Source: Niastella populi (GTDB lineage Bacteria > Bacteroidota > Bacteroidia > Chitinophagales > Chitinophagaceae). Taken from it: DNA of 64,000 nucleotides. The notes beneath the pieces were generated by a model. The model did not search any database. It worked only from the letters and a program-made list of their open reading frames with translations, and had not been told where the DNA came from. The DNA is taken from positions 62,001 to 126,000 of the forward strand of contig NZ_LWBP01000001.1 of the NCBI RefSeq assembly GCF_002078015.1, read 5' to 3'. Made by a program: the position numbers and the translations under genes. Shown one piece after another: positions 15,329-27,341 of this stretch; the first letter of the stretch is position 1, and each line of letters begins with the position of its first letter.

Positions 15329-15949
15329 TTACGCATGATCTATGCGTATCCAGCGCATACCGGCTGCTTCTGCTGCCTGCACACCCGGGGTGCCATCTTC
15401 AAAGACCAGGCATTTTGTTGGGTCAACCCCTAACTTTTCGGCTGCAGATAAAAACGGATCGGGGTAAGGTTTGCCCCGGGGCGTTTCGCCCGCGCATACC
15501 AGTACTTCCACCAGTTTACTGATGCCCAGCAGTTGCAGTGTTTTCGACACCGAAGGGCGGCTGCCGCCCGATACCACCGCTATCCGCACTTTGCCCACAT
15601 GCGCTTTCAGGTGTGCTACCACAAATTCAATAGGCTTTGTTTCATTGATAAAATTGCTTTCGTACAATTTATTCTTCAGTTGCGCAAAGGCCGCAGGATC
15701 GAAGTTCCCGTTGTACCGCTTCCTGATCTCCTCAGCTACCTGTATAATAGGCCAGCCTGCCAGTTCATCGATGATGGCATCATCCAGTTCAAACCCGCAC
15801 ATAGTGGCTGCTGCGCTATAGGAAGCTTTATGCGCGCCCATATTGTCGGCCAGTGTACCGTCGCAGTCGTACAGGAAAGCGTCGTAACTGCCTTCGCTCA
15901 ACCGGGTCAGGATCGTTTGTTTATCGGGGACGGGAAGAATACTGCTCAT
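15329..15949 (-). CDS. HAD family phosphatase, beta-phosphoglucomutase-like
   Basis: 206 residues with all four HAD motifs: LYDCDGTLADN (Asp28, Asp30), AVVSGGSRP, a lysine in the GKPYPDP region (RGKPYPDPFL), and VFEDGTPGVQAAEAAGM. The cap between motifs I and II is the helical C1 type, as in fructose-1-phosphatase YqaB and beta-phosphoglucomutases. It would dephosphorylate a small phosphosugar or polyol. It is the last gene of the sphingolipid/inositol cluster, 10 bases after the PAP2 gene, so an inositol-phosphate or related substrate is possible. That link rests on position alone. Confidence 0.85.
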   Translation of the reverse strand: MSSILPVPDKQTILTRLSEGSYDAFLYDCDGTLADNMGAHKASYSAAATMCGFELDDAIIDELAGWPIIQVAEEIRKRYNGNFDPAAFAQLKNKLYESNFINETKPIEFVVAHLKAHVGKVRIAVVSGGSRPSVSKTLQLLGISKLVEVLVCAGETPRGKPYPDPFLSAAEKLGVDPTKCLVFEDGTPGVQAAEAAGMRWIRIDHA

Positions 15950-15959
15950 ATAAGATCGC

Positions 15960-16895
15960 TTAAATAATTTTTTGCAAATAAGAATTAAAGAAACGGGAAA
16001 ACCATCCTGTTCCGGTAATCATTCGCTGTACCAGGAAAATACCCGTTACGGCGCAACAGATGCCCGCCAGTACGTCGAGCACATAATGATGGCTGGTATA
16101 TACCGCGGCGCACCAGATGCCTGCCATGATCACCGCAAACATACTGCTCGCGTACCGGTACCGCCCTTTCAGGCCATAATATAATACGATCACCGGGTAC
16201 GATGAATGCAGTGAGGGCATGGCGGCAAAAACATTCGAGCCTTTGGCATAGAGCGATTGAAAGACCGGTGCACCCACCAACTCATCGAACCGCTTCAAAC
16301 CGCCCGTGTTCCCGGGCGTGGAAGCTATAAAATTGAACTGATGTTCCTGTACATACCAGGGTGGTGCGGCGGGGTAAATATAATACACCACAAAACCGAT
16401 CATGTTCACTATGAAGAACGCGAGGGCAAACCGCAGGAACAATGCCCGGTCTTTAAAAAACAGGAAAGACGCAAACAACAATGGAACCGGTACCCAGCAT
16501 AAATAAAAAATACCGCTTAACAGGTCGCCGGCCATAAAATGATGTTGCTGAAAAAACTCATTGGGCGTAACGCTTCCTGTTGCCGTTGAAATACCGAACA
16601 ATGCCTTCTCCGCGTTGTACAACGATTCAATATGCACTCCCCTGAACAGATAGTTGGGAAATGCTTTCATGTAGTCGAAAATGATCCAGTATACGATAAA
16701 GATCGAAAACCCGGTAATGAACTTCCGTGTGACGGCGCTACTGTAATACAAGCCGTTAAAAATAGCTATCAATACCAGTTGATCGGTCTTGAAGCCAACC
16801 AGCCATACAGACAGCAACAGGTAGATCACCGAAACAAACGTAGTTATCACTATGGTTCTCGGGGCAAAAAAAACGGCAGGGGCGGTTCTAAACAT
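15960..16895 (-). CDS. PAP2-superfamily AUR1-like protein, candidate inositol-phosphorylceramide synthase
   Basis: 311 residues, with about six membrane helices. The motifs match the AUR1/IPC-synthase branch of PAP2 enzymes: FYLCWVPVPLLF, a segment ending YPAAPPWY, MPSLHSSYP with the first catalytic His, and TSHHYVLDVLAG with the second His and Asp. These enzymes move a phosphoinositol headgroup from phosphatidylinositol to ceramide. In this operon all precursors (ceramide and phosphatidylinositol) can be made by neighbouring genes, which strongly supports the role. It could instead be a plain lipid phosphatase. It starts one base after the stop of the hydroxylase gene. Confidence 0.82.
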   Translation of the reverse strand: MFRTAPAVFFAPRTIVITTFVSVIYLLLSVWLVGFKTDQLVLIAIFNGLYYSSAVTRKFITGFSIFIVYWIIFDYMKAFPNYLFRGVHIESLYNAEKALFGISTATGSVTPNEFFQQHHFMAGDLLSGIFYLCWVPVPLLFASFLFFKDRALFLRFALAFFIVNMIGFVVYYIYPAAPPWYVQEHQFNFIASTPGNTGGLKRFDELVGAPVFQSLYAKGSNVFAAMPSLHSSYPVIVLYYGLKGRYRYASSMFAVIMAGIWCAAVYTSHHYVLDVLAGICCAVTGIFLVQRMITGTGWFSRFFNSYLQKII

Positions 16896-16896
16896 A

Positions 16897-24842: not shown

Positions 24843-24844
24843 TT

Positions 24845-25018
24845 ATCTATGGTGAATGGTCAATGGTGAATGGTGAATGGTCAATGGTGAATCGGCAAAC
24901 GTGAAAGATTTATACTCGTAGCTCACTATCAAATGCTAAGCTCCTTTATTTCTATTCTTTCCCTCTATCACCTCTATCAACCTTGTCAACCTATCAACTT
25001 GTCAACCTGTCAGCTAAC
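24845..25018. repeat. Array of ATGGTGA/ATGGTCA units with a partly inverted CTATCAAC arm
   Basis: The left part (24845-24892) repeats ATGGTGA and ATGGTCA words in near-perfect 7- to 14-base periods. The right part (24966-25018) repeats CTATCAAC/TTGTCAACC words that are approximately the reverse complement of the first. The stop codon of the acyltransferase gene (24994) and its last eight codons fall inside the right part. The left part starts three bases from the CerR-like start codon. Confidence 0.78.
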
Positions 25019-26133
25019 GTCTTTTCAAAAATTCGGTAGCGTTTATAAACTTTACCATTGATGCTTTCAATTCCTTTATTCATCATTTCATTGTGCTCGA
25101 GGATCCAGGATGCTTCTGCGCCTTTCATTCCCCGTGCACTTACGCGTTTGATTATCGCGGCATAAAAACAGGCTTCAATACCCATCTTCCTGTATTCTTT
25201 ATTTACGCCCAAGGCCAGCACGCGAATGCGGTCGATCTTTTTCATATTGAACAACAGTTTGAAGATGCCGGTTGGCAGCAGTCGTCCCCGCCGTACCTTT
25301 ATCAGGATCTGGTTGATATCGGGTATAGCAAGGGCAAAACCTATTTGTTTGCCATTGTGTTCCGCTATGAGGCAAAACTCTTCATCGAGCACCATCTTCA
25401 GGTCTTTTGCCAGGTAGCTGAACTCGCTGTCGGTCATGGGTACAAATCCGAGGTTCTTATCCCAGGCAGCGTTGTATACTTCGCGCACTTTATTTGCTTC
25501 GTTGGCGAGGTCTTTTTTATTTACGGGCCGTATGGTGATATTGTTCCGGCGTAGCCTGTTCAGTAATTTTTCTTCGAGCAATACCGGCCGTTTGCCCACC
25601 GATTCAAGTGAAAGGTCCCAGGCCAGCAGGTCTACTTTCTTTTGCAGCGACAGCATCTCGAGCAGCGATGTATAATAAGGTTTATTATACGTCATCATGG
25701 CCAGCGGTGGTTTGTCAAAACCGTCGATCAGCAAACCGCATGGCTCATTGGTTGACGGGTTTACCGGCCCGATGAGGGTCGTGGCGCTATGGTCTTTCAG
25801 CCATTGTTCCGCCGAGGTGAACAGCGCCGATGCCGCTTCCATGTCGTTGATGCATTCAAAAAAGCCGAAGAACCCATCGGTGGTATTGTTGAACCGGTTG
25901 TGGTTATTGTTCAGGATGGCAGCAATTCTTCCAACGATGGCATAGTCTTTATAATAAAGGAATAACTGCATTTTTGAATGTTCATGAAACGGATGTTTGC
26001 CGGGCGTCAGCAGATCGCGCTGCGCGATAAACAGTTCAGGAACATAATTGGCATCCCCTTTATACAGTTCATGCGGGAAGTCGATGAAATCTTTTAACTG
26101 CTTTTTTGTATTTACATTCACTATACCGGTCAT
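24994..26133 (-). CDS. GNAT-fold acyltransferase, candidate bacterial ceramide synthase
   Basis: 379 residues, about twice the length of a simple GNAT enzyme. The N-terminal half has [16 protein letters not shown] and [19 protein letters not shown]; the C-terminal half has the acetyl-CoA-type core with [20 protein letters not shown]. Proteins of this kind in the Caulobacter sphingolipid cluster act as the bacterial ceramide synthase that N-acylates the long-chain base. The ATG overlaps the stop of serine palmitoyltransferase by four bases, so the two are translationally coupled. The last residues (TLADRLTS) are encoded within a repeat array. Confidence 0.8.
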
Positions 26134-27341
26134 GCGCTTTCTTTTTTCAGTTTCAGGTCAATGCCCAGTGTCAGGGCTGTTTTCTTCATTTTATCCACGG
26201 CTTCCTCTATCTGGCTAAAGGAATGGGTGCTCATGAGCGAAAGCCGTATCAGGGACGACTCTGAAGGCACAGCAGGGGACACAACGGGGTTTACAAAAAC
26301 GCCGGTGTCCTGCAGGGCTTTGGTGAACAGGAATGTCTTGTGATTGTCGCCAATGCGTACGGGTATGATGGGGCTTTGTGTTTCGCCGGTATCGAATCCC
26401 TGCTCCTGCAGCAGTCCCATCATATAATTGGTATTATCCCAGAGTTTATTGATGCGTTGCGGTTCCTCTTCAATAATATCGAGGGCGGCAATAACGCTGG
26501 CGGTAGAAGCGGGCGTCATGCTGGCGCTGAAAATAAGTGCGCGGGCCTTGTGCTTCAGATAATCGATCACTTCACTATCGCCTGCAACAAAACCGCCGAG
26601 TGAAGCAAGCGACTTGCTGAAGGTGCCCATAATAAGGTCGGTTTCGGCGGTAAGGTTGAAATGCGAGGCGGTGCCTGCGCCATTCACGCCAATAACGCCT
26701 AAGGCATGTGCATCATCTACCATTACGGCAGCGTTATATTTATCGGCAAGTGTTGTAATAGCGGGAAGATTGGCGATATCGCCTTCCATACTGAAGATGC
26801 CGTCGGTAACGATCAGCTTGAACGCGTTTTCGGGTAACAATTGCAACCGGTGCTCGAGGTCCTGCATATCGTTATGCCGGTACTTGATCACCCGTGAGAA
26901 TGAAAGCCGGCTGCCATCGATGATCGATGCATGGTCGTACTCATCGAGTAAGAGCACATCTGCACGGCCCGACAAAGCAGAGAGCGTACCAAGGTTGGCC
27001 TGGAAGCCGGTGCTGAAAAGGATCGCATCTTCTTTGCCGGTATAGGCGGCCAGTCTTCTCTCCAGTTCAACATGCAAGTCCAGTGTACCATTTAAAAACC
27101 GCGAGCCGGCACATCCGCTGCCATATTTTACAATGGCACGACTGGCGGCTTCGGCTATCCGTGGGTGGTTAGTAAGGCCAAGATAAGAATTGGAGCCAAA
27201 CATTAACACGCGTTTCCCGTTGAGTGTTACCTCTGTTTCCTGTCCTGATTCAATTACGCGGAAATAAGGATACACGTTTTGCGCTCTTATCAGGTCCGCA
27301 TCTTTGAACAGTGAAATTTTTTGCTGTAGTATATTTCGCAT
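26130..27341 (-). CDS. spt: Serine palmitoyltransferase
   Basis: 403 residues from ATG 27341 ([10 protein letters not shown]); a TTG at 27356 in frame is less likely. It belongs to the alpha-oxoamine synthase family of PLP enzymes. His137 (DEYDHASI) stacks on PLP, Asp209/His212 (VDDAHALG) hold it, and Lys243 ([13 protein letters not shown]) forms the Schiff base. [10 protein letters not shown] and [14 protein letters not shown] are the substrate-side motifs. Relatives include KBL and BioF, but the context with ceramide, inositol and AUR1-like genes supports SPT, which condenses serine with palmitoyl-CoA or acyl-ACP to start sphingolipid synthesis. It is the first gene of the cluster. Confidence 0.9.

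Follow-up and report, generated by a model that had tools for sequence, protein, structure and literature searches.

The 64,000-nucleotide stretch of Niastella populi DNA analyzed here (contig NZ_LWBP01000001.1, positions 62,001 to 126,000; hereafter the window) carries a twelve-gene cluster that is very probably a chromosomal sphingolipid locus making inositol-phosphoryl (2-hydroxy)ceramide. In order of transcription, the cluster encodes serine palmitoyltransferase (SPT), a tandem-GNAT protein, an extended short-chain dehydrogenase/reductase (SDR), myo-inositol-phosphate synthase (MIPS), a PgpA-type phosphatase, a GtrA-family protein, a DUF5686 protein, a CDP-alcohol phosphatidyltransferase acting as putative phosphatidylinositol phosphate synthase (PIPS), a DUF4833 protein, an Scs7/FA2H-like hydroxylase, an AUR1-like transferase and a HAD-family phosphatase (Table 1). 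This assignment builds on gene content, homology, active-site residues, conservation across genomes and the barrel fold of a structure model, all of which were observed here.

In the proposed pathway, SPT would catalyze the condensation of serine and an acyl-CoA. N-acylation of the product would fall to the tandem GNAT and reduction of the 3-keto group to the SDR, the order of both steps being left free, and the Scs7-like enzyme would hydroxylate the acyl chain, with C2 as the most likely position. The CDP-alcohol enzyme would produce phosphatidylinositol phosphate, which the PgpA-type phosphatase would dephosphorylate to phosphatidylinositol. AUR1 would transfer phosphoinositol to ceramide under release of diacylglycerol, and the DUF5686 protein, a predicted Omp85-type barrel, probably aids delivery of the completed lipid to the outer membrane. 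The substrates of GNAT and SDR, the 2-hydroxylation, the transport and the final product are those parts of the scheme that we infer.

SPT, KBL, BioF and cysteate acyltransferase form one family whose members score well against each other. The first enzyme could thus be one of the latter three, and the locus would then make another amino-lipid, e.g., a sulfonolipid, instead of ceramide. The sequence-only reading, an earlier annotation of this DNA, had named a grouping with KBL or BioF as an outcome that would refute its claim; the comparison did not refute it and favored SPT. The protein reached 694.5 bits against the Bacteroidota SPT model NF047600 (curated cut-off 640) and stayed below the cut-offs of the KBL and BioF models. 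Its best solved relative was the SPT of Sphingobacterium multivorum (568.6 bits, E 5.6e-170), compared to 298.8 bits for the best solved enzyme of the BioF/KBL type and 233.8 bits for the cysteate acyltransferase 28eh. Of 16 active-site residues taken from the description of the S. multivorum enzyme (PMC10196870), 15 were identical; the single exception, M271 to I, affects a residue described there as a main-chain contact. The KBL encoded in the same genome deviates from SPT at residues 79-81 and 271. No other gene of this genome scored above the SPT cut-off. The genome also holds three weaker relatives, i.e., a KBL scoring 674.8 bits (cut-off 493) and a BioF-like protein (354.4 bits on a partial stretch, cut-off 426.45), both encoded elsewhere, and one unassigned protein. 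In a FastTree tree of 32 sequences including KBL and BioF of E. coli, the KBLs of N. populi and E. coli paired at 1.000 and the BioF proteins at 0.992, and both pairs fell outside the SPT group. The cluster enzyme was placed among SPTs that come from fused loci and from five genomes in families f26 and f27 (probably Bacteroidales), with some branches inside this group poorly supported. In these five genomes (L226-L230), no other cluster gene was detected within 16-20 kb around SPT. Based on model scores, nearest structures, tree and active-site residues, an identity as KBL, BioF or cysteate acyltransferase was rejected as highly improbable.

For MIPS, the nearest solved enzyme was the inositol-3-phosphate synthase 7nwr (E 2.1e-162), which we take to be the structure of BT_1526 from Bacteroides thetaiotaomicron. 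PIPS passed the BT1523 model NF052561 with 399.4 bits (cut-off 350). Its CDP-alcohol motif, described as perfect in the sequence-only reading, is intact at residue 79 and present in all 88 homologues above 200 bits within the examined loci, window included. The PgpA gene is the only PgpA match of its genome; each of the 11 genomes examined has exactly one, which lies outside the cluster in four of them. A knock-out of the GtrA gene BT_1524 left the inositol lipids of B. thetaiotaomicron unchanged in thin-layer chromatography (Heaver et al. 2022, PMC9246714).

The AUR1-like transferase matches yeast AUR1 (9vj3, E 2.6e-14) with aligned histidine motifs. It contains the PAP2 motifs PSLHS at residue 227 and TSHHYVLDVLAG at residue 267, and PSxH and HHxxxD are conserved in 84/84 homologues above 300 bits. 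A GGLxRxD stretch matched in few of these homologues (strict pattern 3/84, relaxed pattern 8/84) and was therefore not used as evidence. The hydroxylase matches yeast Scs7 with E 6.9e-30 by sequence and E 6.5e-40 by profile, and two yeast Scs7 entries are its sole solved relatives at E up to 1. In an alignment read by eye, histidines of the bacterial protein stand opposite 12 of the 13 aligned histidines of Scs7; the remaining one is located outside the motifs. The earlier AUR1-like and FA2H-like calls are thus borne out by a direct likeness to the yeast enzymes at the sequence level. Fungal and animal FA2H/Scs7 enzymes carry an N-terminal cytochrome b5 domain. A Pfam scan found none in the N. 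populi protein, a single-domain hydroxylase that, judged by its sequence, may at most be said to work like Scs7. Its start was set to 17523, replacing a mechanically called TTG at 17685.

Conservation was followed in three sets of genomes, and none of the resulting counts takes account of phylogeny. Within the genus, the MIPS of the cluster is present in 8 of 10 genomes (own genome included) and missing in two. All eight MIPS-bearing genomes have the cluster; seven hold the complete set of twelve genes, and in the eighth a contig end truncates it after DUF5686. Across 392 evenly sampled genomes of the phylum, SPT exceeded its cut-off in 19, of which 15 also gave a strong MIPS match. AUR1 was detected in 15 genomes (E up to 1e-20), 13 of them with SPT over the cut-off (Fisher p 4e-18, uncorrected for phylogeny). 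SPT lies beside AUR1 at 9 of these 15 loci, and the hydroxylase is found at all nine and at none of the other six. The third set came from a scan of named genomes with a hydroxylase alignment, in which 80 of 509 confirmed stretches were kept and the 62 loci with full flanks were counted, 18 shorter ones being dropped. These 62 loci carry the hydroxylase by construction and partly repeat genomes of the two other sets. They contain SPT in 46, GNAT in 47, SDR in 46, MIPS in 43, PgpA in 38, GtrA in 43, DUF5686 in 51, the phosphatidyltransferase in 47, DUF4833 in 34, AUR1 in 47 and HAD in 10 cases; SPT and AUR1 occur together in 43, and SPT, MIPS and AUR1 in 39. SPT and AUR1 co-occur in genera such as Niastella, Paraflavitalea, Ferruginibacter, Pedobacter (Sphingobacteriaceae) and Mucilaginibacter, as well as Pontibacter and Rufibacter (Hymenobacteraceae).

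These counts bear on the idea that the locus is merely the BT_1522-1526 cassette of B. thetaiotaomicron lying next to ceramide genes by chance in one strain. SPT and MIPS are indeed not within 10 kb of each other in 7 of the 15 sampled genomes having both. However, they lie within 10 kb in the other eight, and the cluster is not a chance neighborhood since it is kept in all eight MIPS-bearing genomes of the genus. The joint occurrence of SPT, MIPS and AUR1 in hydroxylase loci and the conservation across genera likewise speak against chance, an explanation to which we give next to no weight.

The two remaining ceramide enzymes were characterized by domain models and structure prediction. The GNAT protein barely passed the Pfam GNAT cut-off (20.8 bits, cut-off 20.7), and its sequence gave nothing useful against solved structures (best E 2.1). 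None of 41 family members matched an NCBIfam model better than E 0.0049. In the structure model (pLDDT 86), the protein has a tandem GNAT fold, with the tandem GNAT 2wpw as best Foldseek match (E 9.5e-13). Its neighborhood suggests ceramide N-acylation. In the phylum sample, the 12 genomes with a GNAT score above 590 bits all have SPT over the cut-off and the next genome scores 448.3, a separation obtained with a model built from cluster members. In four genomes of other classes (G302, G125, G106 and G068), an SPT-like gene of ~490-510 bits is followed after 86-133 nt by a GNAT of the same family as that of the cluster, so that the pairing of synthase and acyltransferase extends beyond the clear SPT group. 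The SDR scored above the cut-offs of Pfam Epimerase and 3Beta_HSD and contains GxxGxxG and YxxxK; 3-oxo-ceramide or 3-ketosphinganine would be its substrate. This extended, epimerase-type protein is unlike the 3-ketosphinganine reductase BT_0972 of B. thetaiotaomicron, which was picked by TSC10 similarity and has about 31 kDa (PMC9278070).

In the model of the DUF5686 protein, the barrel superposes on solved Omp85-type barrels (BamA, TamA, SAM and TOC complexes), with most matching rows spanning residues 458-849 only. The likeness was seen for the predicted barrel; the N-terminal half, with a CarboxypepD_reg-like domain and a further part, may set the protein apart from Omp85-type proteins. 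The Omp85 superfamily features POTRA domains and a loop-6 motif. No paper on DUF5686 was found in a search that left subscription papers and preprints outside.

Several observations weigh against the proposed function. The AUR1-like transferase reached only 346.4 bits (E 1.5e-103) against NF052609, the model of phosphoinositol dihydroceramide synthase, and thus remained below its cut-off of 480, as did 13 of the 15 AUR1 genomes in the phylum sample. Moreover, two of these genomes, G405 and G285, have AUR1 and inositol-lipid genes without SPT over the cut-off, and G285 also lacks a MIPS match, so that the enzyme may serve another acceptor there. These points could mean that the transferase uses a different acceptor or donor, e.g., a glycolipid, and that the SPT group is adjacent only for shared membrane roles. 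Against this stand the other 13 AUR1 genomes with their SPT, and the B. thetaiotaomicron pathway, which was characterized as far as phosphoinositol dihydroceramide, the product of the synthase BT_1522 (Heaver et al. 2022, PMC9246714). We therefore consider a different acceptor or donor unlikely; from its sequence, the transferase is probably a homologue working like the NF052609 enzyme, though outside the equivalog cut-off. At the loci of the two genomes without clear SPT (L056 of G405 and L220 of G285), PgpA, GtrA, DUF5686, PIPS and AUR1 are all present.

The hydroxylase stands alone in 11 of the 62 loci (seven Sphingobacterium, three Chitinophaga and one Pedobacter), and the N. populi genome (G000) holds nine other PF04116 (FA_hydroxylase) genes outside the cluster. 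The Pfam family FA_hydroxylase also includes sterol and long-base enzymes. The enzyme might thus act on the sphingoid base (at C4, Sur2-like), on a free fatty acid or on a carotenoid instead of C2 of the N-acyl chain. Its solved relatives, however, are Scs7 entries alone, with a Sur2 match not among them, possibly because none is solved, and its linkage to SPT in the AUR1 loci (9/9 versus 0/6) also speaks against such targets. In addition, FA2H-like enzymes of myxobacteria are functional 2-hydroxylases (PMC10002949). Another hydroxylase target is clearly the less probable option.

For GNAT, the family occurs in 379 of the 392 phylum genomes (E up to 1e-10), and seven of the 19 SPT genomes have distant members alone (best E 2.0e-68 to 2.2e-58), which shows that the family as such is not ceramide-specific. 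In two genomes, G013 and G399, a distant member adjoins SPT. In G413, GNAT is encoded on a different contig from the cluster and MIPS matches only weakly. The cluster of G010 ends with DUF5686.

Some loci combine the ceramide genes with other head-group genes. L221 (G226) has SPT-GNAT-SDR-DUF5686 and next, on that strand, genes for an NTP transferase, a Pfam-less protein, a CDP-alcohol transferase, a membrane protein resembling LPG synthase, and a HAD protein. L181 (Larkinella arboricola) shows SDR-DUF5686 with these five gene types, plus a PfkB kinase, DUF4833 and the hydroxylase; SPT and GNAT are unseen there because the stretch ends at SDR. L166 has MIPS, DUF5686 and the hydroxylase, followed by the five gene types. 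In L150 (Arachidicoccus rhizosphaerae), SPT, GNAT, SDR, MIPS, DUF5686, DUF4833 and the hydroxylase are accompanied on the opposite strand by GtrA, HAD, a CDP-alcohol transferase, a Pfam-less protein and an NTP transferase; an LPG-synthase-like gene was not seen among the genes scanned. The two-part Thermococcales model of inositol-phosphate cytidylyltransferase and CDP-inositol transferase was matched weakly, far below cut-off, by the L221 NTP transferase and by the CDP-alcohol transferases from three loci (L221, L181 and L150). In a third form (L222, L223, L157 and L172), SPT and GNAT lie near a distant CDP-alcohol transferase and GtrA, with SDR in the first three, and neither MIPS nor AUR1 was found in the stretch; the Pfam score in L223 was 21.9 (cut-off 22). 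The PfkB-family kinase of L181 (8390-9382) sits beside the alternative inositol cassette in a stretch without detected MIPS and could phosphorylate free inositol.

A putative alternative inositol cluster with NTP transferase, CDP-alcohol transferase and HAD has been described, though not proven, for B. vulgatus and Prevotella (Heaver et al. 2022, PMC9246714). Its gene types are joined to SPT-GNAT-SDR-DUF5686 in L221 and to SDR-DUF5686-DUF4833-hydroxylase in L181, and also stand beside cluster genes in L150 and L166, whereas the window has the BT-like cassette and lacks the alternative cluster. This exchange provides independent genomic support that the unproven cassette serves ceramides. As a tentative model, for which we claim less than even odds, environmental Bacteroidota may have a modular sphingolipid locus, in which a recurrent module for ceramide and export (SPT, tandem GNAT, SDR, DUF5686, often DUF4833 and the Scs7-like hydroxylase) takes up one of at least three head-group cassettes: BT-like inositol with AUR1; a CDP-inositol type comprising an NTP transferase, a CDP-alcohol transferase, a membrane protein resembling LPG synthase, and HAD; or CDP-alcohol transferase plus GtrA without inositol genes. 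DUF5686 would be an Omp85-type protein dedicated to outer-membrane sphingolipid placement.

Table 1 Genes of the cluster and its upstream neighbor in the window.
Feature	Position	Strand	Basis
SPT, first ceramide step	26130..27341	-	NF047600 model; S. multivorum SPT match
Tandem-GNAT N-acyltransferase, putative ceramide synthase	24994..26133	-	Pfam GNAT; model fold
Extended SDR (epimerase type), putative 3-oxo-ceramide or 3-ketosphinganine reductase	23850..24842	-	Pfam Epimerase + 3Beta_HSD
MIPS	22496..23824	-	Pfam NAD_binding_5 + Inos-1-P_synth
PgpA-type phosphatase, putative phosphatidylinositol phosphate phosphatase, BT_1525 position	22026..22496	-	Pfam PgpA 127 bits
GtrA-family membrane protein, BT_1524 position	21589..21969	-	Pfam GtrA
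DUF5686 protein: signal-like start, CarboxypepD_reg-like domain, predicted Omp85-type beta-barrel	19036..21588	-	
CDP-alcohol phosphatidyltransferase, PIPS	18314..19021	-	NF052561; intact motif
DUF4833 protein, signal-peptide-like start	17763..18317	-	Pfam DUF4833 1.8e-45
Scs7/FA2H-like fatty-acid (ceramide) hydroxylase, lacking a cytochrome b5 domain	16897..17523	-	Pfam FA_hydroxylase
AUR1-like PAP2 phosphotransferase, putative inositol-phosphoryl-ceramide synthase	15960..16895	-	NF052609 homology; yeast AUR1 match
HAD-family phosphatase, accessory, lineage-restricted	15329..15949	-	Pfam HAD_2
AraC-type regulator, upstream, same strand as cluster	27612..28508	-	Pfam HTH_18

All twelve genes that the sequence-only reading had placed on one strand are present on the minus strand at the positions it gave, and Pfam and NCBIfam-type model scores uphold its domain assignments. 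As a twelve-gene pathway the cluster contains nearly all expected enzymes, with DUF5686, DUF4833, GtrA and HAD given no enzyme step. HAD, though present, lies outside the core given its low count in the hydroxylase loci and was rejected as a core member. It was also rejected as a HAD of the B. vulgatus type, as its profile has no match in L181 and L221, which carry that cassette. The wording "many 1-4 base overlaps" was generous, since only 3 of 11 junctions overlap (by 4, 1 and 4 nt), and gaps of 151 nt (between SDR and GNAT) and 239 nt (between hydroxylase and DUF4833) stand out as long; overlaps or gaps of 0-1 nt make up 5 of 11. The long gaps may hold internal promoters. The one before the hydroxylase contains 8-bp tandem units and inverted arms of 35 nt (89% complementary) at 17557-17761, the one before SDR 7-bp tandem units (ATGGTGA) at 24849-25012, and these short tandem repeats are possibly a hairpin or repeat element. 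The AraC-type protein is a possible regulator of the cluster, and its gene has an equivalent position in six other loci of the genus and in L054. Near the lipid cluster, at 12247-14098, lies a low-GC pair encoding GMT-wHTH and DUF5131 proteins (GC 0.353 in 12001-14000), which match the PADLOC candidate defense proteins PDC-M30A (E 5.9e-163) and PDC-M41B/PDC-M30B (E 9.1e-132 and 1.1e-130).

Steps beyond SPT were listed as uncharacterized in Heaver et al. 2022 (PMC9246714). The cluster names candidates for the ceramide N-acyltransferase (the tandem GNAT) and the reductase, as well as for a 2-hydroxylase and for a protein that possibly delivers the lipid to the outer membrane. Its compact block could be transferred to a laboratory E. 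coli strain for production of eukaryote-type inositol sphingolipids. An earlier description of the fused cluster was not found in titles and abstract openings among the matches listed, with subscription papers and preprints outside the search.

In B. thetaiotaomicron, the MIPS, PIPS, phosphatidylinositol phosphate phosphatase and AUR1 steps of BT_1522-1526 are established, GtrA excepted; SPT is BT_0870, and a BT_1527-like neighbor is mentioned (PMC9246714). The same paper cites a report of ceramide phosphoinositol from Sphingobacterium spiritivorum. The order MIPS-PgpA-GtrA-PIPS-AUR1 is shared with BT_1526-1522, and BT_1527, a carboxypeptidase-regulatory-like neighbor, can be equated with DUF5686 by domain description only. 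In B. thetaiotaomicron, SPT lies outside the cluster and the available source text names no GNAT, SDR, hydroxylase or DUF4833 within it, whereas here all form one block; the AUR1 of the window, unlike that system, is below the NF052609 cut-off. Both branches are thus joined as the sequence-only reading had claimed, but it understated that the inositol half including AUR1 is this known cassette. The ceramide cluster of Caulobacter comprises aasR, cerR, acpR, spt and cerS (PMC11324152). Here as there, SPT, N-acyltransferase and reductase lie near head-group genes, with GNAT and SDR likened to CerS and CerR by role only. Unlike in Caulobacter, the twelve genes include no acyl carrier protein or acyl-ACP synthetase, and the head group would be inositol phosphate. 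Yeast AUR1 (inositol-phosphoryl-ceramide synthase) and SCS7 (ceramide hydroxylase) catalyze the same pair of reactions as proposed here, with aligned histidine motifs, although the bacterial hydroxylase has 208 residues and, unlike SCS7, no cytochrome b5 domain. Taken together, the chemistry of this yeast-like membrane lipid is known from gut bacteria; in this soil-type bacterium, both pathway halves share one block with a ceramide hydroxylase and with what is likely a barrel protein of the outer membrane.

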